Source of the DNA: an uncultured Eubacteriales bacterium
GTDB taxonomy: Bacteria > Bacillota > Clostridia > Christensenellales > Aristaeellaceae
Length of the DNA: 64,000 nt
Assembly (NCBI GenBank): GCA_900318145.1
Contig: ONJM01000005.1
Location: 1 to 64,000, forward strand
Direction: 5' to 3'
Shown: positions 31,616 through 62,578 of the stretch, in pieces
Numbering within the stretch: position 1 is the first letter of the stretch
How the letters are laid out: each line of letters begins with the position of its first letter
Position numbers and translations under genes: made by a program
The notes under the pieces: model-generated
The model's input: the letters and a program-made list of their open reading frames with translations, nothing else
Database searches by the model: none
Told to the model about the DNA's origin: nothing

Positions 31616-31880
31616 ATTTCATACAAGGCTGTGACGAAGACGGAACAGCGGGAGGCCCCGCAGAGAGCCGGGAATGGTGTGAACCGGCGGGCTGAAGCTT
31701 CATCCCATCCCTTCCGAGCCGGAGATCCGAAAGGCTTACCCCCCAGTAGGCGTCCCCCGTGATTGCTGCGTAAAGGCATAGGGCATGTCAGTGCCTGAAG
31801 AGGCGCGGAAATTCCGCGCAATTTGAGTGGTACCGCGAGTCATCATGACCCGTCTCAAAGCGAGACGGGTCATTTATTTT
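31616..31880 (+). promoter_or_regulatory. T-box riboswitch (tRNA-sensing transcription attenuator)
   Basis: The T-box sequence GAGTGGTACCGCGA is at 31825-31838. Stem I features are visible: CAGAGAGCCGG (31671-31681) and GGTGTGAACCGGC after it, then a CTTCCGAGCC return strand near 31711-31720. A 12-pair terminator (31845-31856 with 31862-31873, then TTATTTT) competes with an antiterminator in which TTTGAG (31822-31827) pairs with CTCAAA (31854-31859). The TGGT bulge would pair with a tRNA ending ACCA, that is, discriminator A. The specifier codon is not certain by eye; ATC, TTC or CCC in the 31701-31711 stretch are candidates. Confidence 0.92.
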
Positions 31881-31897: not shown

Positions 31898-34168
31898 ATG
31901 AATACCCAGACAGATCTTGCTCAGCTCAGCGCCGTCGCTTCCCGCCTGCGTGAAATGCGGGAGATTCTCGGCTGGACCCAGGAGGAAATGGCGGAGAAGA
32001 CCGAGGTCACCCCTGAGGAATACAAGCTGTACGAAGCCGGCAATACGGATATGCCTTTCACTTTTATCTACAAATCCGCGCAGGCTTTCAACATGGAGCT
32101 GACGGAGCTGCTGGAAGGCCAGAACGCCTATCTGTCCTCCTACACCGTTACGCGGCGGGGCAAGGGTGAATCCACTGCCCGGGAGGAAGGCATCGCCATT
32201 TCCAACCTGGCGCCCAAGTTCAGGGATAAGATTGCCGAGCCTTACTGGGTCCGGTATGAGTACTCCGAAAAGCAGCAGAATGAACCGATCCACCTTACGA
32301 CGCACCGGGGCCAGGAATTCGACCTGGTGCTGCAGGGCAGCCTGAAGGTGCAGGTCGGCGAGCATACGGAAATCCTGCACGAGGGGGACAGCATCTACTA
32401 CAATTCCTCCCTGCCGCACGGCATGATCGCCGTGGAAGGTACGGACTGCGTCTTCTGCGCGGTGGTGCTTCCCGGTGAAGCGCCCGCGGCGGTTGAGGAA
32501 GTGGAGGTGCAGGTAAAGGCCCGGCCGGAGGAAACGCACCTGATCGCCGAGAAGTTCATCGACGCGGAGGAGGACGCGCAGGGACGCCTGACCGCCATCA
32601 GCTTCAAACATACGGATACGTTCAACTTCGGCTTTGACATCGTGGATGAAATCGCGCGGAAGTATCCGGAAAAGCTGGCGATGCTGTATGTGGACCGGAA
32701 CCATCTGGAGCGGCGCTTCACGTTCAAGGACGTCAAGGATGCTTCCAACCAGTTTGCCAACTATTTCACCTCCCTGGGGATCCGCAGGGGCGACCGGGTG
32801 ATGCTGGTCATGAAGCGGCACTACCAGTTCTGGTTTGCCATGGTGGCGCTGCATAAACTGGGCGCCATCGCGATCCCGGCGACCAACCAGCTGAAGGAGC
32901 ACGACTTTGAATACCGCTTCAATTCGGCGGGTGTAAAGGCGCTGGTATGCACCGCTGACGGGGATACCGCGGAGATCGCCGAGCGCGCGGCGGCGAAATG
33001 CCCCAGCGTACAGACGCTGATCCTGGTGAACGGCAGCCGGGAAGGCTGGCATGACCTGAACGCGGAATACCCGCTGTTCACGCGACGGTTCCACCGGCAG
33101 GATGACAGCTCCTGCGGCGACGATATCGCGCTGATGTTCTTCACCTCCGGCACGACGGGCAACCCGAAGATGGCGGCCCACAAGCATACCTACGCCCTGG
33201 GGCATTATGTGACGGCGAAATACTGGCACTGCTGCGAACGGGACGGACTCCACTTTACCATTTCCGACACGGGGTGGGGCAAATCCCTGTGGGGCAAGCT
33301 GTACGGACAGTGGCTGTGCGAAGGCGCTGTGTTCGTATACGATTTTGACAAATTTGACGCGGCGGACATCCTGCCGATGTTCAGGCATTACAACATCACG
33401 ACGTTCTGCGCGCCGCCCACGATGCTGCGGATGTTCATCAAGGTGGACCTGGCGAATTACGACCTGTCCTCCATCCATCACATGACCACGGCGGGCGAAG
33501 CGCTGAATCCGGAGGTTTTCCGCCAGTTCGAAAAGGCGACCGGCCTGAAGATCATGGAAGGCTTCGGGCAGACGGAAACGACGCTGACGATCGGCAACCT
33601 GTTCGGCGGCGTGCCGCGGATCGGTTCCATGGGCAAGGCGAATCCGCAGTACGATGTGGATATCGTGGACCCGGAGGGCAATCCGGTGCCGAACGGCGAA
33701 GTGGGCGAGATCGTCGTCCGCACGAAGGACAGCGTTCCCTGCGGCCTGTTCCGGGAATACTACCTGGACGAGGAAAAGACGAAGGACGCCTGGTACGACG
33801 GAATGTATCATACGGGCGACACCGCCTGGCGGGATGAGGACGGCTATTTCTGGTATGTCAGCCGGATTGACGACGTGATCAAGTCCTCCGGATACCGGAT
33901 CGGGCCGTTCGAAATCGAAAGCGTCATCATGGAGCTACCCTACGTGCTGGAATGCGGCGTGTCGGCGGAGCCGGATGAGATCCGCGGCCAGATCGTCAAG
34001 GCGTCCATCGTGCTGACCAAGGGCACGGAAGGCACCGAGGAACTGAAAAAGGAAATCCAGAAATATGTCAAGGAGCATACCGCGCCTTACAAGTATCCGC
34101 GCAAAATCGTGTTCCGGGAGGAACTTCCCAAGACGATTTCAGGAAAAATCCAGCGCAATCTGCTCTGA
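31898..34168 (+). CDS. XRE helix-turn-helix / cupin / AMP-forming acyl-CoA synthetase fusion
   Basis: 756 residues in three parts. Residues about 10-70 are an XRE-type DNA-binding domain (RLREMREILGWTQEEMAEKT). Residues about 110-190 are a cupin barrel (EPIHLTTHRGQEFDLVLQGS, then PHGMIAVEG). Residues about 215-756 are an acyl-adenylate-forming ligase with the P-loop MFFTSGTTGNPKMAAHKH, the GFGQTETT motif, the YHTGDTAWRDEDGY motif and the catalytic Lys in the final PKTISGKIQR. It should activate a carboxylic acid to its CoA ester; the HTH and cupin suggest it also senses a ligand or controls its own expression. T-box control ties it to one amino acid, so the substrate may be an amino-acid-derived acid. 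AAAGGAGC gives the start. Confidence 0.9.
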   Translation: MNTQTDLAQLSAVASRLREMREILGWTQEEMAEKTEVTPEEYKLYEAGNTDMPFTFIYKSAQAFNMELTELLEGQNAYLSSYTVTRRGKGESTAREEGIAISNLAPKFRDKIAEPYWVRYEYSEKQQNEPIHLTTHRGQEFDLVLQGSLKVQVGEHTEILHEGDSIYYNSSLPHGMIAVEGTDCVFCAVVLPGEAPAAVEEVEVQVKARPEETHLIAEKFIDAEEDAQGRLTAISFKHTDTFNFGFDIVDEIARKYPEKLAMLYVDRNHLERRFTFKDVKDASNQFANYFTSLGIRRGDRVMLVMKRHYQFWFAMVALHKLGAIAIPATNQLKEHDFEYRFNSAGVKALVCTADGDTAEIAERAAAKCPSVQTLILVNGSREGWHDLNAEYPLFTRRFHRQDDSSCGDDIALMFFTSGTTGNPKMAAHKHTYALGHYVTAKYWHCCERDGLHFTISDTGWGKSLWGKLYGQWLCEGAVFVYDFDKFDAADILPMFRHYNITTFCAPPTMLRMFIKVDLANYDLSSIHHMTTAGEALNPEVFRQFEKATGLKIMEGFGQTETTLTIGNLFGGVPRIGSMGKANPQYDVDIVDPEGNPVPNGEVGEIVVRTKDSVPCGLFREYYLDEEKTKDAWYDGMYHTGDTAWRDEDGYFWYVSRIDDVIKSSGYRIGPFEIESVIMELPYVLECGVSAEPDEIRGQIVKASIVLTKGTEGTEELKKEIQKYVKEHTAPYKYPRKIVFREELPKTISGKIQRNLL

Positions 34169-34211: not shown

Positions 34212-34233
34212 CCGAAAAAAATCATTAAACCTA

Positions 34234-34262
34234 TTGACATAGTAGGTTAATAGTGATATTAT
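34234..34262 (+). promoter_or_regulatory. metY leader promoter with embedded conserved block
   Basis: TTGACA (34234-34239) and TATTAT (34257-34262) are 17 bases apart. The spacer TAGTAGGTTAATAGTGA is almost identical to that of the promoter at 57409, which is beyond what sigma factor recognition needs. ACCTA before the -35 (34229-34233) and TAGGT within the spacer (34243-34247) form an inverted repeat, as expected for a repressor such as an Rrf2/CymR-type regulator (inferred). Confidence 0.85.
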
Positions 34263-34294
34263 ACGGACAATTCATACGAAGGGAGGCGCGGTTC

Positions 34295-34417
34295 ATGTTC
34301 AGGAAGAGCGGTCTCGGACAGTGCAGAATGTGTTGTCGAATGCTTATCTCCCGGGCATGTTCCATGGCGGAGGCGTCCGGCCTGATTGCCACGCGCCTCA
34401 GGATGATACGGTGCTGA
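34295..34417 (+). CDS. Cys/Met-containing leader peptide upstream of metY
   Basis: 40 codons after GGGAGG at 34281-34286. Cysteines occur at codons 10, 13, 14, 22 and 40 and methionines at 1, 12, 16, 24 and 37; the core is QCRMCCRMLISRAC. It aligns without gaps from codon 1 to the leader at 57492 (shared M1, F2, C14, R15, M16, S19, R20, A21, M24, R34 and L35). Codons 19-21 (TCC CGG GCA) are also the RNA element that pairs with the terminator arm, so conservation of Ser-Arg-Ala may reflect RNA structure. Its translation probably reports cysteine or methionine supply to the attenuator that precedes metY. Confidence 0.8.
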   Translation: MFRKSGLGQCRMCCRMLISRACSMAEASGLIATRLRMIRC

Positions 34418-34475
34418 AAACAGCGCCGGTCTGACCGCTGAATGCCCGGGAGCTTTCGAAAGCCCCCGCTTTTTT
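34348..34475 (+). promoter_or_regulatory. Transcription attenuator before metY
   Basis: A terminator is formed by CGGGAGCTTT (34447-34456) and AAAGCCCCCG (34459-34468), with one A-C mismatch, then CTTTTTT. Inside the leader reading frame, CTCCCGGGCAT (34348-34358) is perfectly complementary over 11 bases to ATGCCCGGGAG (34442-34452), which overlaps the terminator's 5' arm. The two pairings exclude each other. Which ribosome position favours which structure is not resolved. Confidence 0.75.
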
Positions 34476-34522: not shown

Positions 34523-35812
34523 ATGAGTAATTATAAATTCGAAACCCTGCAGCTTCACGTGGGACAGGAACAGCCCGATCCGGCGACCGACGCCCGCGCC
34601 GTACCGATTTACCAGACGACCTCCTATGTGTTCCGGAACAGTCAGCACGCCGCGGACCGCTTCGGCCTGGCGGATGCCGGAAATATCTACGGACGGCTGA
34701 CCAACTCCACGCAGGACGTGCTGGAAAAGCGCGTGGCAGCGCTGGAGGGCGGCAGCGCGGCGCTGGCGGTGGCTTCCGGCGCGGCGGCCATTACCTACAC
34801 GATCGAGGCGCTGGCGGCCAACGGAGGGCACATCGTGGCCCAGAAGACGATCTACGGTGGCAGCTTCAACCTGCTGGAGCATACGCTGCCCCAGTACGGC
34901 GTGGAAACCACTTTCGTGAATGCCCATGACCTGCGGGAGGTTGAAGGCGCGATCAAAGAGAACACCCGCGCGGTTTATCTGGAGACGCTGGGCAACCCGA
35001 ACAGCGACATCCCGGATATTGACGCGATCGCTGAAATTGCTCACAGGCATGGCCTTCCGCTGGTGATCGACAATACCTTCGGCACGCCCTACTGGATCCG
35101 GCCGATCGAGCACGGAGCGGATATCGTGGTTCATTCAGCGACAAAATTCCTCGGCGGCCACGGTACGACGCTGGGCGGCGTGATTGTGGAATCCGGAAAG
35201 TTCGACTGGAAAGCCAGCGGAAAATATCCGGGCATCGCGGATCCGAACCCGAGCTATCATGGCGTATCCTTCTATGACGCGGTGGGCCCGGCGGCATTCG
35301 TAACCTATATCCGGGCGATCCTGCTGAGGGATACCGGCGCGTCGATTTCCCCGTTCAACGCCTTCCTGCTGCTGCAGGGTGTGGAAACGCTTTCCCTCCG
35401 GCTGGACCGGCACGCGGAGAACACGAAGAGGGTTGTGGAATATCTGGCGAAGCATCCGCTGGTGGAGAAGGTTAACCATCCTTCTCTGCCGGACCATCCG
35501 GATCACGCGGTTTATCAGCGCTATTTCCCGAACGGCGGCGCTTCCATTTTTACCTTTGAGATCAAAGGCGGGCAGAAGGAAGCATGGGCGTTCATTGACC
35601 ATCTGGAGATCTTCTCCCTGCTGGCCAACGTGGCGGACGTGAAGAGCCTGGTGATCCATCCGGCTTCCACCACCCACTCCCAGCTGACGGAAGAGGAACT
35701 GCTGGACCAGGGAATCCGGCCCAGCACGATCCGTCTGTCCATCGGTACGGAGCACATTGACGATATTATCGCCGATCTGGAAAAAGGCTTTGAGGCGGTC
35801 CGGCAGCTGTGA
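34523..35812 (+). CDS. metY: O-acetylhomoserine sulfhydrylase (MetY)
   Basis: 429 residues, the usual length for MetY. It is a PLP enzyme of the Cys/Met metabolism fold, with the Schiff-base lysine in VVHSATKFLGGHGTT, the phosphate-binding region ASGAAAIT, and the family openings FETLQLHVGQEQPDPATDAR and VPIYQTTSYVF. It joins O-acetylhomoserine with sulfide to make homocysteine, or with methanethiol to make methionine. GAAAAGGAGAG sets the start. It is expressed behind a leader-peptide attenuator shared with the methionine importer at 57736, so both should answer to the same sulfur-amino-acid signal. Confidence 0.94.
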   Translation: MSNYKFETLQLHVGQEQPDPATDARAVPIYQTTSYVFRNSQHAADRFGLADAGNIYGRLTNSTQDVLEKRVAALEGGSAALAVASGAAAITYTIEALAANGGHIVAQKTIYGGSFNLLEHTLPQYGVETTFVNAHDLREVEGAIKENTRAVYLETLGNPNSDIPDIDAIAEIAHRHGLPLVIDNTFGTPYWIRPIEHGADIVVHSATKFLGGHGTTLGGVIVESGKFDWKASGKYPGIADPNPSYHGVSFYDAVGPAAFVTYIRAILLRDTGASISPFNAFLLLQGVETLSLRLDRHAENTKRVVEYLAKHPLVEKVNHPSLPDHPDHAVYQRYFPNGGASIFTFEIKGGQKEAWAFIDHLEIFSLLANVADVKSLVIHPASTTHSQLTEEELLDQGIRPSTIRLSIGTEHIDDIIADLEKGFEAVRQL

Positions 35813-57354: not shown

Positions 57355-57408
57355 TACCGGGCGGAGGCAGATACGAAAAGAGATACAATCAAAATGCAAT
57401 AAAACATA

Positions 57409-57437
57409 TTGACATAGTAGGTGAATGGTGATATGAT
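57409..57437 (+). promoter_or_regulatory. Methionine importer leader promoter
   Basis: TTGACA (57409-57414) and TATGAT (57432-57437) are 17 bases apart. The spacer TAGTAGGTGAATGGTGA differs from the metY spacer at only two positions, and the flanking -10 differs by one. Confidence 0.85.
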
Positions 57438-57491
57438 CCGGTCAAGCTTCCCGGAGGTGCCGGGAAGACAACGCGGAAAGGAGGCGCAGAC

Positions 57492-57611
57492 ATGTTTACG
57501 GAGTACAGGGAACTGATTCTGAATACGATGTGTCGAATGCAGGAATCCCGGGCAAGCGGAATGACCGGGGTGCCGGCATGCATATGTCTGCGCCTGAACA
57601 AGTCGCTGTAA
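57492..57611 (+). CDS. Cys/Met-containing leader peptide upstream of metN
   Basis: 39 codons after AAAGGAGG at 57477-57484. Core residues are TMCRMQESRASGM and, later, PACICLRLNKSL, with Cys at codons 14, 30 and 32. It aligns codon for codon with the leader at 34295 from the first residue. The nucleotide block TGTCGAATGC at codons 14-17 and TCCCGGGCA at codons 19-21 are shared as well. A 5'-UTR hairpin (57447-57454 with 57460-57467) precedes its ribosome site. It probably senses cysteine or methionine for the attenuator in front of the importer genes. Confidence 0.8.
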   Translation: MFTEYRELILNTMCRMQESRASGMTGVPACICLRLNKSL

Positions 57612-57664
57612 GGAAACGCGAAGGTCATTGCGCCCGGGAGATGAAACAGTCTTCCGGGTTTTTT
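57546..57664 (+). promoter_or_regulatory. Transcription attenuator before the methionine importer
   Basis: The terminator is CCCGGGAG (57633-57640) with CTTCCGGG (57651-57658), one G-U pair, then TTTTTT. TCCCGGGC within the leader frame (57546-57553) is perfectly complementary to GCCCGGGA (57632-57639) on the terminator's 5' arm, giving mutually exclusive structures like those before metY. Confidence 0.75.
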
Positions 57665-57735: not shown

Positions 57736-58812
57736 ATGATCAGGATCGGGCATGTATCTAAAACCTTCCGGGAAAAAAAGACGGAAGTCCGCGCGCTGCA
57801 GGATGTGAGCATTCATGTCCACAAAGGTGAAATATACGGAATCGTCGGATTCTCCGGCGCGGGAAAATCAACCCTGATCCGGCTGGTGAACAGGCTGGAG
57901 ACACCGGATGAAGGAACGGTGGAAGTGGCCGGACGGCAGCTTGATACCCTGAAAGGAAAAGAGCTTTCCGCGCTCCGCCGGAAGATCGGGATGGTGTTTC
58001 AGCAGTTCAATCTCCTGGAAGGGAAAACTGTGTACCACAATGTGGCTGTTCCGCTGATCCTGGAGCACCGGAGCGCGGCGGAGATTGAAAAAAGGGTGGC
58101 GGAGGTCCTGGAATTCGTGGAGCTTTCGGAGAAGCGGAACGCCTACGTGAGCCAGCTGTCCGGGGGACAGAAGCAGCGGGTCGGCATCGCGAGGGCGCTG
58201 GCCACCAGCCCGGAGATCCTGCTGTGCGACGAGGCGACCAGCGCGCTGGATCCGCAGACGACGGAATCCATCCTGAAGCTGCTGAAGCGGGTCAATGAGG
58301 AGATGGGTATCACCATCCTGCTGATTACCCACCAGATGCAGGTGATTCAGCTGATCTGTGACAGGGTGGCTGTGATGGAGCAGGGCCGGGTGGCAGAGGA
58401 AGGAGCGGTGCTCGACGTTTTCGGCCGGCCGAAGGAGGAAGTGACGAAGCGGTTTGTAAGAACCGTTATCAACGATCAGGTTCCGGAAAGCTTTTATGAT
58501 ACGATCCGGGCGGAAAACCGGCACTACCGGCTGGAACAGCTGAAATTTATCGGGGACTCGGTGAACGAACCGGTGATTGCGAATTTGTGCCGGCGGAAGG
58601 GACTTGAGGTGAACATCATCGGCGCGAACATTTCCCAGATGCAGGGAAGCATGATGAGCGTATTCATTCTCCAGCTGATCGGAGAGACGGAAGCTATCGG
58701 GGAAGCGGAGCAATACATTGACGCTTCCGGCGCGCTGAGGCAGCGGCTGTTTATTGACTGGGACAGCCGGACCATTACGGAAATACCGGCGGGAAAAGGA
58801 GCGGACGCATGA
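57736..58812 (+). CDS. metN: Methionine ABC importer ATP-binding protein MetN
   Basis: 358 residues from the ATG at 57736 (GGAGGACC upstream); the open frame extends up but overlaps the terminator. The ATPase (about 1-240) has GFSGAGKST, LSGGQKQRVGIARAL, LLCDEATSALDPQ and LITHQMQV. The C-terminal NIL domain (about 270-350; LKFIGDSVNEPVIANLCRR) senses methionine and shuts transport when it is abundant. Overlaps metI by 4 bases. Expression should follow the leader attenuator. Confidence 0.94.
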   Translation: MIRIGHVSKTFREKKTEVRALQDVSIHVHKGEIYGIVGFSGAGKSTLIRLVNRLETPDEGTVEVAGRQLDTLKGKELSALRRKIGMVFQQFNLLEGKTVYHNVAVPLILEHRSAAEIEKRVAEVLEFVELSEKRNAYVSQLSGGQKQRVGIARALATSPEILLCDEATSALDPQTTESILKLLKRVNEEMGITILLITHQMQVIQLICDRVAVMEQGRVAEEGAVLDVFGRPKEEVTKRFVRTVINDQVPESFYDTIRAENRHYRLEQLKFIGDSVNEPVIANLCRRKGLEVNIIGANISQMQGSMMSVFILQLIGETEAIGEAEQYIDASGALRQRLFIDWDSRTITEIPAGKGADA

Positions 58813-59498
58813 ACGAATTTCTGAACAGTAAGGTATTCGGCATCAAGTGGAGCCGCCTTCTGACAAACTGCCAGCAAACGCTTTACATGGTCGGATGGGG
58901 ACTGCTGATCGGTACGTTCTTCGGACTGATCCTGGCACTGGTGCTGGTGCTGACCCGAAAGGGCGGGGTGATCCAGGGCCGGGCAGCCCGGATCCTGTAC
59001 GCGGCTGTGAATGTCTATGTGAACGTGATCCGATCGGTGCCTTTTGTCATTCTGCTGGTTACGATCATGCCGCTGACCCGGCTGATTATGGGAACAACGA
59101 TCGGATCCACCGCGGCGCTGGTGCCGCTGGTGCTCTACATCAGTCCGTACCTGGCGCGGCTGCTGGAAAACAGCCTGCTGGAATGCTCACCGGGCATCAT
59201 TGAGGCGGCGCAGGCGATGGGAGCCAACATATGGCAGATTATCCGGTACTTCCTGATGCCGGAAACCCTTGGCAGCATGGTGCTGGCCCTGACGACCGGC
59301 GCGATCGGCCTTCTGGGCGCGTCCGCCATGGCCGGCTATGTGGGTGGCGGCGGGGTCGGGGACCTGACGCTGACCTACGGATACGAGAAGATGAATACCC
59401 CGCTGATGATTCTGACAGTGGTGATCCTGGTGATCTTCGTCCAGCTGATCCAGTTCCTCGGAGGAGCCATTTCAAGAAAGCTGAGGGCACACAGATGA
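58809..59498 (+). CDS. metI: Methionine ABC importer permease MetI
   Basis: 229 residues with five membrane helices. The EAA loop is ECSPGIIEAAQAMGANIWQII, which docks on MetN, and the family stretch VNVIRSVPFVILLVTIMPLTRLI precedes it. It forms the membrane channel for MetQ-delivered methionine. It overlaps metN by 4 bases and is followed by metQ after 137 bases. Confidence 0.94.
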   Translation: MNEFLNSKVFGIKWSRLLTNCQQTLYMVGWGLLIGTFFGLILALVLVLTRKGGVIQGRAARILYAAVNVYVNVIRSVPFVILLVTIMPLTRLIMGTTIGSTAALVPLVLYISPYLARLLENSLLECSPGIIEAAQAMGANIWQIIRYFLMPETLGSMVLALTTGAIGLLGASAMAGYVGGGGVGDLTLTYGYEKMNTPLMILTVVILVIFVQLIQFLGGAISRKLRAHR

Positions 59499-59635
59499 GA
59501 AGGGAAATGCGGAAAATCCGGTGGTCCGAACGATGTCGGCGCAACGGACGGTCGAGAGACCGAATGCGGGCATTCCGTACCGAATGAAAAACCGACGAAA
59601 CAGAATATAACGGATTGAAAGGAAGGTATAAACCT

Positions 59636-60478
59636 ATGAAAAAAGCAATTGCCATTATTCTGACGCTGTCCCTGCTGCTGGCGGCCGCCGCCTTCGCGGA
59701 TGATGCTGAAGTGATCAAAACCGATAAAACGCTGATCCGGTATTCCAAGTCCCAGGGACCTTACACTGAACTGTTTGAAGCCGCGATCGTTCCGATTCTG
59801 GAAGCGCAGGGCTATACGCTTGAGGTGGTTGAGACTTCCGAGCTGCTGGTCGCGGACCAGATCCTGCAGGCGGGCGAAGTGGACGTGAACGTGGAGCAGC
59901 ATACCGCCTACGCGGAAAACTTCAACGCCAATAACGGCGGCGATCTGGTGCCGATCAGTGTGATCCCCACCGTGGCCGCGGCGATTTACTCCGCCAACCA
60001 TGAGACGCTGGAGGAAGTGCAGGACGGCTTTACGGTCGCGATTCCGAACGATGCCGCCAATACCGCGCGCTGCCTGGCGATTCTCCAGAAGATCGGGTGG
60101 ATCAGGCTGGATGAATCCGTTGAGATTTCCAAAGTCAGCGTTGATGACGTGATTGAAAATCCCTACAACCTGGAGCTGATCGAGCAGAAGAGCCTGACCA
60201 TCCCCGCCGCCATTACGGATTACGACTATGTGGTGATCACCGGCTCGGTCGTATACAATGCCGGCGTGAACGAGAAGTACAAGGCGCTGGCGCAGGAGGA
60301 CATTCTGCCGCATCTGATCCTGCAGGTTGTGGTCAAAGCGGAGAATGTTCATACCGACTGGGCGCAGGCGATTGTCGCTGCCTACCATTCCGATGAGTTC
60401 AAGGCATACCTTGAGAAGGAAAACGCCGCGGAAGGCTTCTGGAAAGGCCTGTGGTGGATTCCGGACGAGCTGAAGTAA
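59636..60478 (+). CDS. metQ: Methionine-binding protein MetQ (NlpA family), normal lobe order
   Basis: 280 residues from the ATG at 59636 (GAAAGGAAGG upstream). The signal peptide (about 1-21, ending AAAFA-DD) has no lipobox Cys, unlike most MetQ lipoproteins. Lobe order is normal: first lobe with LIRYSKSQGPYTELFEAA and EVDVNVEQHTAYAENFNANN, then IPNDAANTARCLAILQKIGW and the second lobe with ITDYDYVVITGSVVYNAGVN. It captures methionine or a related compound and hands it to MetNI. Confidence 0.9.
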   Translation: MKKAIAIILTLSLLLAAAAFADDAEVIKTDKTLIRYSKSQGPYTELFEAAIVPILEAQGYTLEVVETSELLVADQILQAGEVDVNVEQHTAYAENFNANNGGDLVPISVIPTVAAAIYSANHETLEEVQDGFTVAIPNDAANTARCLAILQKIGWIRLDESVEISKVSVDDVIENPYNLELIEQKSLTIPAAITDYDYVVITGSVVYNAGVNEKYKALAQEDILPHLILQVVVKAENVHTDWAQAIVAAYHSDEFKAYLEKENAAEGFWKGLWWIPDELK

Positions 60479-60520
60479 TCCGGCCCGGACCAAAGCGATC
60501 AACAAAGGAGGATAAAGAAA

Positions 60521-61432
60521 ATGAATAAATCTGTGAAAAGGATCCTTTCGATTACTGCGGCACTGCTGCTGACCGTTCTGACTGCCGCCGCTTCTGCCGA
60601 AACGCTGCAGATCGGCATTCCGGATGACGGCACAAATCTGTCCAGAGGCATTAAGCTGCTGGAGACGGCCGGGCTGATTACCGTGAATCCCGAAGCGGGT
60701 TATACCCCTGAACTGGCGGACATCACCGGATATCTGTATGACGTGGAGGTGGTTCCGGTACAGGCCAATACGCTGCCTTCCACCCTCGGGGATTTCGGAG
60801 CTTCCGCGATCAACGGCACCTATGCCATTCCGAATAACCTGATTCCTTCCCGGGACGGCCTGATCATTGAGAAACAGAGTGAAAGCGGAGACAACCCCTA
60901 TGTGAATATTATCGTCGCCCGGACGGCGGATGCCGGAAACGAAACCTACCGGAAGGTCGTGGCTGCCTACCAGACGCAGCTGGTTGCGGAGTTTCTGCTG
61001 GTGAATTATGAAGAAGCCTTCTTCCCGGCCTTCGCGTACAGCAATGAAATCAGCCTGACCCCGGAAGAAGCGAAGGAGATCGTTGCCTATACTTCCGACA
61101 GGGAAGGAAAGGCCGTTGTAACGGTCGGCGTATGCGGCGCGAACAACGATCAGTGGAAGGCGGTCCAGAAGGTACTGGACGATGAGAACGCGGGCATCTA
61201 TATTGAACTTGTGGAATTTGATGCCTACAATCTGCCCAATGAGGCGCTGAACTCCGGTGAAATTGACCTGAACGCGTTTCAGCACAAGGCATATCTGAAC
61301 AACGACGCGACGGTCAACGGCTATGACCTGACGGTCATCGGCGATACACTGATTGCCCCGCTGACGCTGTATTCCGAAAAGTTTGACTCCCTGGACGCGC
61401 TGAAGGAAGCGGCGGGAGAAAAAGCGCAGTAA
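60521..61432 (+). CDS. MetQ-like binding protein with swapped lobe order (circular permutation)
   Basis: 303 residues after AAAGGAGGATAAAG, with a signal peptide (about 1-25, ending ASA-ET, no lipobox). Immediately after it comes IGIPDDGTNLSRGIKLLETA, which in normal MetQ begins the second lobe, followed by SAINGTYAIPNNLIPSRDG and NPYVNIIVARTAD, ending near the VVPAF-like EEAFFPAFAYS. Only then comes the normal first lobe: AVVTVGVCGANNDQWKAVQK, EIDLNAFQHKAYLNND and LYSEKFDSLDALKEAAGEKA, ending just where the second lobe would normally start. The order is consistent with a circular permutation. One frame with good codons; not a frameshift. Ligand probably a methionine-like amino acid. Confidence 0.85.
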   Translation: MNKSVKRILSITAALLLTVLTAAASAETLQIGIPDDGTNLSRGIKLLETAGLITVNPEAGYTPELADITGYLYDVEVVPVQANTLPSTLGDFGASAINGTYAIPNNLIPSRDGLIIEKQSESGDNPYVNIIVARTADAGNETYRKVVAAYQTQLVAEFLLVNYEEAFFPAFAYSNEISLTPEEAKEIVAYTSDREGKAVVTVGVCGANNDQWKAVQKVLDDENAGIYIELVEFDAYNLPNEALNSGEIDLNAFQHKAYLNNDATVNGYDLTVIGDTLIAPLTLYSEKFDSLDALKEAAGEKAQ

Positions 61433-61465
61433 TCCGTAAGCCGGCAGACAGGAGAGGAGCGCACC

Positions 61466-62578
61466 ATGATTGAGATTCGGGAGCTGAATAAGACTTTTCG
61501 CCTCAAAACCGGGGATGTGGAAGCTGTCCGGGATGTATCCCTGACAATCGGCGACGGTGTGATTTACGGGGTGATCGGATCCTCAGGCGCCGGGAAATCG
61601 ACCCTGGTGCGCTGCCTCAATCTGCTGGAAATACCGGATTCAGGAACAATTATCCTGGACGGCGTCGGAGAAATTGTCCTGAAAAACGGGAAACCGTATC
61701 TGAACGGAAAGGAAATGACGTCCCGGCAGCAGAATGACATGCGCCGGGGCATTGGCATGATCTTCCAGCATTTTAACCTGCTGGACCGCTGCACGGTATT
61801 CGAAAACGTCGCGTATCCGCTGATGCATACCGGACGGAGCCGGAAGCAGATTGAAGAGCGGGTGCGCGAGCTGCTGAAGCTGGTCGCCCTGGAGGATAAG
61901 ATTGACGGGTATCCGTCCCAGCTGTCCGGAGGGCAGAAGCAGCGCGTGGCCATTGCCCGGGCGCTGGCTGCGGAACCCCGGATCCTGCTGTCGGACGAGG
62001 CAACCAGCGCGCTGGATCCGGAAGCGACTGAAGCGATTCTGTCCCTGCTGCAGGAGGTTAACAGGAAGCTGGGGGTTACGGTTGTGCTGATAACGCATGA
62101 AATGGCGGTGATCAAGAGCATTGCCGACCGGGTGGCTGTAATGGAGGACGGCCGGGTTGTGGAAGAAGGATCCGTATATGAGATTTTTGCGGATCCGCAG
62201 GAGAAGATTACCCGGAAGTTTGTTGCCTCTTCCTCGCTGCTCGGCAAACTGGACAGGTTGCTGGAGGAGGATGCGGAACTGGTTCGGGTGCGGCCGGGGG
62301 AGATGCTGGTCCGTCTGATGTTCCAGAAGGACTGCGTCGGAGAGCATCTGCTGACGACGGCTGCCAGGAGATACGGCTTCGACCTGAACATTATCCTGGC
62401 AAACTCGGAATACCTTCACGGGAGCCCTATCGGAGGGATGGCCGGGATTATCAGCGGAGACCGGGAAAAAATTGAAATGGGACTGGCGTTCCTGCGGGAA
62501 AACCATGTCAGCGCGGAGGTGATCAGTGATGGAAGAGCTGATGAGGCAGATCACGCCGAATCTTTACCTGTATCGTGA
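61466..62578 (+). CDS. metN: Second methionine-type ABC importer ATP-binding protein
   Basis: 370 residues. The ATPase has GSSGAGKST, LSGGQKQRVAIARAL, ILLSDEATSALDP and LITHEMAV, all intact, plus a NIL domain at the end (about 280-355). An insertion of about a dozen residues (GEIVLKNGKPYLNGKE) lies between Walker A and the Q-loop, absent from the first MetN. It follows the permuted binding protein by 33 bases and overlaps the next permease gene by 50 bases. Confidence 0.9.
   Translation: MIEIRELNKTFRLKTGDVEAVRDVSLTIGDGVIYGVIGSSGAGKSTLVRCLNLLEIPDSGTIILDGVGEIVLKNGKPYLNGKEMTSRQQNDMRRGIGMIFQHFNLLDRCTVFENVAYPLMHTGRSRKQIEERVRELLKLVALEDKIDGYPSQLSGGQKQRVAIARALAAEPRILLSDEATSALDPEATEAILSLLQEVNRKLGVTVVLITHEMAVIKSIADRVAVMEDGRVVEEGSVYEIFADPQEKITRKFVASSSLLGKLDRLLEEDAELVRVRPGEMLVRLMFQKDCVGEHLLTTAARRYGFDLNIILANSEYLHGSPIGGMAGIISGDREKIEMGLAFLRENHVSAEVISDGRADEADHAESLPVS

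Follow-up and report, generated by a model that had tools for sequence, protein, structure and literature searches.

A putative ribosome-mediated transcription attenuator reading tRNA-Cys charging upstream of sulfur genes in Clostridia

Two leader frames and their surroundings

The window (the whole stretch of DNA analysed, 64,000 nucleotides) contains two short reading frames, separated by about 23 kb on one contig, each of which follows a promoter and lies upstream of a sulfur gene, metY in one case and metN in the other (Table 1). The first-pass annotation had placed both frames correctly, together with the strong Shine-Dalgarno sequence ahead of each (GGGAGGCG, 34281-34288, and AAAGGAGGCG, 57477-57486), the identity of the genes downstream and the gapless alignment from codon 1. 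The shared residues that it listed (M1, F2, C14, R15, M16, S19, R20, A21, M24, R34 and L35) are correct, and I31 is also common to both frames, for a total of 12 identical residues.

At the DNA level, a core of the form TGTCGAATG-N6-TCCCGGGCA is identical in the two leaders and found at exactly two places in the window. When up to three mismatches are allowed, 0.11 copies of the core are expected, and at least two were found in 1 of 100 shuffles of the window; a 31-nt promoter block, also present in two copies in the window, was matched in 0 of 100 shuffles, and these chance estimates are to be read with caution, as both patterns were composed after the two copies were known. A third leader, MARCIMRHCRRMQIMRPGVFMRAGVRCC, is encoded elsewhere in this genome, on a different contig (C36:35102-35188, minus strand), upstream of a cysK-like gene. 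It has the same promoter as the window leaders and a diverged core, and a covariance model of the family (see below) did not recover it at E 0.001, the two window leaders being its only matches in the genome. The small regulon of two unlinked leaders that had been proposed therefore stands in that sulfur genes are preceded by one leader family, and has to be extended by this third member before cysK.

Table 1. Features of the two leaders and their downstream genes (window coordinates)
Feature	Position	Strand	Remarks
Rrf2/CymR-like palindrome CCTATTGACATAGTAGG over -35 box, leader 1	34230..34246	+	-35 TTGACA 34234-34239; -10 TATTAT 34257-34262
Shine-Dalgarno region, leader 1	34281..34290	+	GAGGCGCG (34283-34290) can pair with CGCGCCTC (helix P1); swap test, 103 leaders
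Leader 1 coding frame, MFRKSGLGQCRMCCRMLISRACSMAEASGLIATRLRMIRC and stop	34295..34417	+	40 aa; upstream of metY; frame conserved family-wide
Tandem Cys codons TGT TGT (Cys13, Cys14), putatively regulatory	34331..34336	+	followed by CGA ATG; Cys at codon -2 family-wide
Predicted antiterminator 5' arm CTCCCGGGCAT	34348..34358	+	starts 14 nt after first base of last Cys codon; compensatory changes in relatives
Anti-Shine-Dalgarno segment CGCGCCTC	34392..34399	+	within codons for T33 R34 L35
Predicted antiterminator 3' arm ATGCCCGGGAG	34442..34452	+	doubles as terminator 5' side
Intrinsic terminator hairpin and T-run (34470-34475), leader 1	34446..34475	+	
metY, O-acetylhomoserine/O-acetylserine sulfhydrylase	34523..35812	+	TIGR01326, 623 bits, above cut-off; PF01053
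Same operator-promoter box CATATTGACATAGTAGG, leader 2	57405..57421	+	-35 57409-57414; -10 57432-57437
Shine-Dalgarno/start segment AGGCGCAGACAT, leader 2	57482..57493	+	complementary to ATGTCTGCGCCT; P1, 12 Watson-Crick pairs
Leader 2 coding frame, MFTEYRELILNTMCRMQESRASGMTGVPACICLRLNKSL and stop	57492..57611	+	39 aa; upstream of metN
Cys codon TGT (Cys14), leader 2, putatively regulatory	57531..57533	+	followed by CGA ATG
Predicted antiterminator 5' arm TCCCGGGC, leader 2	57546..57553	+	starts 15 nt after first base of Cys codon
Second antiterminator helix, 5' side AATGACC	57560..57566	+	family test P2b
Anti-Shine-Dalgarno segment ATGTCTGCGCCT, leader 2	57584..57595	+	
Second antiterminator helix, 3' side GGTCATT	57623..57629	+	
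Antiterminator 3' arm GCCCGGGA (57632-57639) and terminator hairpin with T-run (57659-57664), leader 2	57632..57664	+	
metN, ATP-binding subunit, methionine-type ABC transporter	57736..58812	+	TIGR02314, 370 bits, best match, below 500-bit cut-off
Permease and metQ-like genes after metN	up to 61432	+	names by eye
Second metN-like gene	61466-62578	+	name by eye

Across the whole methionine-type transporter cluster (57736-62578), metN-like genes and metQ-like proteins are each present twice. Past the window the cluster continues, on the same strand, into an M20 peptidase-like gene, named by eye, and a gene for an Rrf2 regulator (stretch C25:63003-66386, L354). The genome has two Rrf2 genes, one of them located downstream of the metN cluster, 503 bases beyond the window end (C25:64503-64886).

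In the family, 110 of 124 leaders carry the palindrome CCTATTGACATAGTAGGT over the -35 box with at least 13 of its 18 positions matching, a level of agreement reached by none of 111 control stretches. A palindromic operator at the promoter points to a regulon of the Rrf2/CymR type, in which such a regulator would bind the operator; the IscR and CymR motifs are alike according to passages of PMC3828012, and a regulator of either kind may act here. The same promoter box is also present before desulfurase-like and cysK-like genes (named by eye) that have no leader. Behind the same box, other short frames that contain Cys or FGRM and do not have the core (L175, L181, L186, L190, L192, L201 and L211) are found mostly before metY-like or cysK-like genes, as judged by eye, and are possibly diverged leaders.

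Searches of the whole window against Rfam at the gathering cut-off gave no match at the leaders, and none was obtained at four loci up to E 5; likewise, neither leader peptide matched NCBIfam or Pfam, and neither window leader matched the sequence or structure of a T-box. A separate T-box (RF00230) lies at 31622-31860 of the window on the plus strand, with a score of 68.2 bits, below the Rfam cut-off of 93, and directly upstream of a gene (31898-34168) that combines, by eye, a helix-turn-helix/cupin-like start with an acyl-CoA-synthetase-like part; the genome has seven T-box matches.

Conservation across the leader family

A relaxed search for the core in 200 genomes of the same family found matches in 31, own genome included. 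Inspection of 39 of 40 such places distinguished 28 leaders, all of which read TGTCGAATG and have a -35 box and a complementary arm 99-114 nt past the core start, from 11 unrelated places that use other codons and have neither the box nor the arm. Scanning a species collection for the exact core identified at least 119 stretches (at least 120 matches), and those listed are mostly in records named Lachnospiraceae, Ruminococcaceae, Saccharofermentans, Clostridia or Clostridiales; also among the matches listed are Blautia, Christensenella, Clostridium porci, three Anaerovibrio (class Negativicutes) and one Eggerthellaceae MAG. Exact-core matches in a Gammaproteobacterium, Pseudomonas and Sorangium were set aside as three clear chance hits. 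A covariance model, built with its alignment from 76 of 83 reference leaders, had matches in 25 of 200 family, 13 of 391 class and 5 of 398 phylum genomes (own genome included); one other genus gave matches in 46 of 59, and one other family in 16 of 120. The spread of the leader family is wide but patchy. The metY proteins of Anaerovibrio are about 86% identical to some of those from Clostridia, an identity suggestive of horizontal spread.

For the structural tests, ten of 141 core matches, which have no complementary arm by the rule applied, were excluded; three of these are in unrelated bacteria (L065, L067 and L103), and seven are in Clostridia records, which weighs against the mechanism proposed below. 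The arm and a start are present in 131 matches and an in-frame start with a Shine-Dalgarno sequence in 128, from which filters for redundancy, length and position yielded test sets of 103 to 124 leaders. The analysis of model hits used a subset of 100 chosen loci, with a frame obtained for 99, and stricter filters were applied in the pattern R1 searches of 40 genomes.

Conservation of the frame and of the Cys codons in relatives was the check that the first-pass annotation had proposed, and both are conserved. With any frame allowed, a qualifying ATG is present in 119 of the 141 core matches and absent from 22, and in 117 of the 119 the ATG having the best Shine-Dalgarno sequence is in the frame of the core; this unfiltered count is preferred to the 107 of 109 given by a pre-filtered set. 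Among covariance-model hits with CGAATG, 92 of 93 are in frame, the exception, L326, appearing to be out of frame. L258, L262 and L259 were considered as leaders in other frames and rejected, as ranking of starts by Shine-Dalgarno strength puts all of them in the CGA-ATG frame. Of 147 non-redundant leaders, 106 have Cys at codon -2 before CGA ATG, a position outside every search pattern and model, and 138 have it at codon -1, where TGT was favoured by the search pattern or model. The last three codons before CGA ATG include two or more Cys in 108 leaders and at least one in all 147, the latter figure being partly search-driven for the same reason, and Cys is found among the final three codons of the leader in 76. 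CGA ATG follows the Cys codons in 146 of 147 leaders, its sequence being fixed in the pattern searches and free in the model hits. A short frame with a ribosome site, which predicts translation, and a cluster of codons for the amino acid presumably sensed are both in keeping with an attenuator.

The 'SRA' codons shared by the two leaders (TCC CGG GCA) form an antiterminator arm, a feature overlooked in the first-pass annotation: they are complementary to the terminator 5' side, CCCGGGAG, and the resulting helix is the RNAalifold consensus. The conservation of the CRMxxSRA core is largely a matter of the RNA, through the antiterminator arm and the spacing to the Cys codons, and not of the peptide alone. 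The Cys codons lie outside all helices found. Inspection by eye revealed no convincing pairing partner for the conserved CGAATG, and a covariation test is impossible here because this segment is invariant.

In the alignment of 76 leaders, 7 of 15 pairs have changes on both sides and all five covariation measures beat 500 shuffles, a comparison in which related sequences can exceed shuffles without any structure; the swap tests, made on non-redundant sets, point the same way. For 29 non-redundant variants without TCCCGGGC, mostly found by the covariance model, which rewards pairing, the mean is -23.6 kcal/mol for matched versus -18.5 kcal/mol for swapped arms, and 0 of 5000 swaps were as good as the true pairing. 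Changes on both sides that keep the helix include CTCCCGGACA:TGTCCGGGAG, CTCCCAGGC:GCCTGGGAG, CGGGCTG:CAGCCCG and others, with CTCCCGGACA:TGTCCGGGAG (L209) and GTCCGGGCAT:ATGCCCGGGAG (L203/L204) first encountered through the promoter search and not through the model. In leaders found by pattern, helix P2a hardly varies, its 5' arm having been fixed by the search; the evidence for its covariation therefore comes mainly from hits of the covariance model, in which pairing is rewarded.

The second helix scores z -4.1 in the swap test on 103 leaders and covaries from ATGGC:GCCAT to ATGAC:GTCAT; ATGGC with GCCAT is present in 37 of these leaders, ATGAC with GTCAT in seven, ATGAC with GCCAT in none and neither motif in 25, the remainder being mixed. 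In the same test, pairing between the Shine-Dalgarno sequence and the leader's own 3' part reaches z -10.5. Seven control segment pairs range from z +0.6 to -2.8, the last value for the leader 5' part against the 3' part, and none is as strong as P1. Combined with the antiterminator, the Shine-Dalgarno pairing would produce a pseudoknot. From sequence and modelling, antiterminator and terminator are predicted to be mutually exclusive, as in an attenuator.

Six of the 131 leaders with arm and start yielded no downstream frame. The other downstream proteins, 125 in all, were clustered into 76 metY, 31 substrate-binding proteins, 11 cystine-like permeases, 3 PepT-like peptidases, 2 metN and 2 cysK-like fragments; the main clusters take their names from one or two NCBIfam-named representatives each, and the cysK-like fragments from resemblance only. 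By these clusters and named representatives, cysS was not recognised among the 125. Leaders found by the model extend the list to cystathionine-synthase/lyase-like (metB-like) genes and to a LysR-type regulator, all named from the protein start by eye; the leaders before a LysR-type regulator (L314, L315, L321, L325, L329 and L332, by eye) belong to one genus. Many leaders precede a fusion of an amino-acid substrate-binding domain (PF00497) with a MetQ/NlpA lipoprotein domain (PF03180), as tested for L044 and seen by eye for L085 and others of the cluster.

Proposed mechanism and alternatives

Very probably the leaders act by ribosome-mediated transcription attenuation, with the charging of tRNA-Cys as the signal; the interpretation given in the first-pass annotation is supported. 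Transcription would start from a promoter whose -35 box lies under a CymR/IscR-like (Rrf2) operator, and translation of the leader would begin immediately. When Cys-tRNA is scarce, the ribosome would stall with its A site at the TGT codon(s) and its front edge just short of CTCCCGGGCA, which, left free, would pair with TGCCCGGGAG, aided by the second helix (e.g. AATGACC:GGTCATT); this pairing would remove the terminator 5' side and allow metY or metN to be transcribed. When Cys-tRNA is plentiful, the ribosome would cover the 5' arm and move into the loop between the arms, the antiterminator would come too late, and the terminator would end transcription. Shine-Dalgarno pairing with the end of the frame probably limits re-initiation or favours termination on a ribosome-free leader. 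The front edge of a ribosome is about 12-13 nt from the A-site base; the helix begins just ahead of the place expected for this edge, 14 nt from the first base of the last Cys codon in the metY leader and 15 nt in the metN leader.

Ribosome positions were modelled by folding, in 123 leaders, just those parts of the RNA that a ribosome at a given codon would leave uncovered. With the ribosome stalled at Cys, the antiterminator exceeds 0.5 in 114 leaders and the terminator wins in 9 (mean P(antiterminator) 0.90); with the ribosome past the arm, the terminator is favoured in 116 (mean P(antiterminator) 0.025). A control with shuffled upstream sequence reaches an antiterminator-like state in 22 of 123 (mean 0.18), and nascent RNA before the terminator 3' side forms the antiterminator in 124 of 124. 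In an equilibrium fold with no ribosome and no pseudoknots, the antiterminator exceeds 0.5 in 72 of 123 and the terminator in 49, so default termination would need the Shine-Dalgarno pairing or kinetics. The metY leader has antiterminator 1.00 when stalled, and its terminator reaches just 0.57 with the ribosome past the arm. The stalled metN leader is one of the nine, with terminator 0.95 and antiterminator 0.04 in the full-length equilibrium fold, and 0.96 antiterminator in nascent RNA before the terminator 3' side; if the model is right, its switch must therefore be kinetic. In the model, then, a stall frees the antiterminator and onward movement blocks it, for the metN leader in nascent RNA only.

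Two features exceed this scheme. The near-invariant CGA ATG, retained even in leaders with a changed antiterminator arm, is more than simple codon starvation requires, and the frame, which runs on for about 20 codons past the antiterminator 5' arm, counts against codon starvation as the whole story. We tentatively consider, as a rather speculative extension, that Cys-Cys-CGA-ATG is a programmed pause, that the pairing of the Shine-Dalgarno sequence with the 3' coding part makes a translation-gated pseudoknot, and that the whole is a mobile cassette. If there is such a pause, the slow CGA and the MCCRM nascent chain would set the stall, and a mild loss of Cys-tRNA would flip the switch; if the joint reading is true, it would represent a new attenuator architecture and an operator-leader-sulfur-gene cassette that moved between Clostridia and Negativicutes.

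Starvation for either Cys or Met had been envisaged in the first-pass annotation. The regulatory Cys codons bear out the former, and support for Cys is stronger than for Met. That methionine, or Cys and Met both, is sensed through stalling at ATG codons ahead of the Cys pair is improbable, even though Met is frequent in the leaders (11.7% of residues, Cys 10.5%), occupies codon -3 in 92 and codon -4 in 50 of 147 leaders, positions outside the search patterns, and metY and metN serve methionine as well. In nineteen of the 147 the four codons preceding CGA ATG include no Met, whereas the Cys among the last three is universal (in part through the search); the constant ATG behind CGA is too near, since a ribosome halted on it would cover part of the antiterminator arm; and cysK-like and cystine-type transporter genes are among the targets. 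A nascent-chain arrest peptide, in which the MCCRM motif would sense a small molecule such as free cysteine in place of codon starvation, is equally improbable: the constancy of CGA ATG irrespective of the arm, and CGA being a poor codon, would suit it, but the motif varies (MCMRM, MWCRM, CCQM, CCRK, CMFRM, CCCT) while the Cys codons and RNA pairing persist, and residues farther upstream are not conserved. A riboswitch or protein-bound RNA with terminator and an incidental short frame, for which the strong conserved helices and the terminator could speak, is highly improbable given the conserved frame, the Shine-Dalgarno sites, the Cys enrichment at codon -2 and the lack of an Rfam match at four loci up to E 5. 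For the preferred reading, attenuation by tRNA-Cys charging, sequence comparison supplies the frame, the Cys codons, both antiterminator helices, the terminator, the Shine-Dalgarno pairing, the promoter box and the gene context, from which we infer ribosome stalling, the direction of the response, the part played by the Shine-Dalgarno pairing and binding at the operator.

Comparison with known systems

Attenuators of the trp/his type consist of a translated leader with tandem regulatory codons and an antiterminator that excludes an intrinsic terminator. The present leaders resemble them in the tandem regulatory codons, the competing structures and targets that serve the amino acid presumably sensed, and differ in that this amino acid is cysteine, that the frame includes the antiterminator 5' arm, at 14-15 nt from the Cys codon, that it stops within the antiterminator loop and that the Shine-Dalgarno sequence pairs with the 3' part of the frame. 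In trp leaders, unlike here, the frame is not known to continue for about 20 codons past the arm. The leader would act as a classical attenuator, and the earlier remark that its family was not known as a described one agrees with the copies of Rfam, NCBIfam and Pfam searched, which contain no match; such leaders are therefore probably unannotated in many genomes. The literature agrees as well: no Firmicutes cysteine leader of the present kind was found in the open-access papers searched. The leader occurs in many records of rumen and gut Clostridia, the prediction is specified base by base and lends itself to easy testing, and the leader is a potential cysteine-responsive genetic part.

Among the related descriptions is that of the uORFC-8-2 motif upstream of cysS in Rhodobacterales, which, in the passages available from PMC8632094, shares the short frame, two tandem Cys codons (usually 14-15) and a terminator, and differs in its restriction to cysS and Rhodobacterales, a two-stem RNA, Cys codons inside a stem and a preference for UGC as against TGT here. 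Among the 125 downstream proteins and the helices identified, neither the cysS context nor Cys codons in a stem was recognised, and the present leaders differ in both respects from uORFC-8-2 as described. Cys operons of Actinobacteria likewise have Cys-codon leader peptides before cysteine genes, but with the Cys run near the stop codon and no conserved terminator-like hairpins, as far as passages of PMC1262725 describe them. In Firmicutes, leader peptides replace T-boxes upstream of hisZ and hisS, again by attenuation but for histidine, and the passages of PMC2965389 on Firmicutes leader peptides include no cysteine leader. Cysteine control in Clostridium, as covered in parts of PMC2940859 and PMC3828012, involves Cys T-boxes and predicted CymR/IscR-like operators, respectively. 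The Cys T-boxes of Clostridium perfringens respond to tRNA-Cys by premature termination before cysK and transporters and, in contrast to the attenuator proposed here, do so by direct contact between tRNA and RNA, with no translation (PMC2940859, in part).
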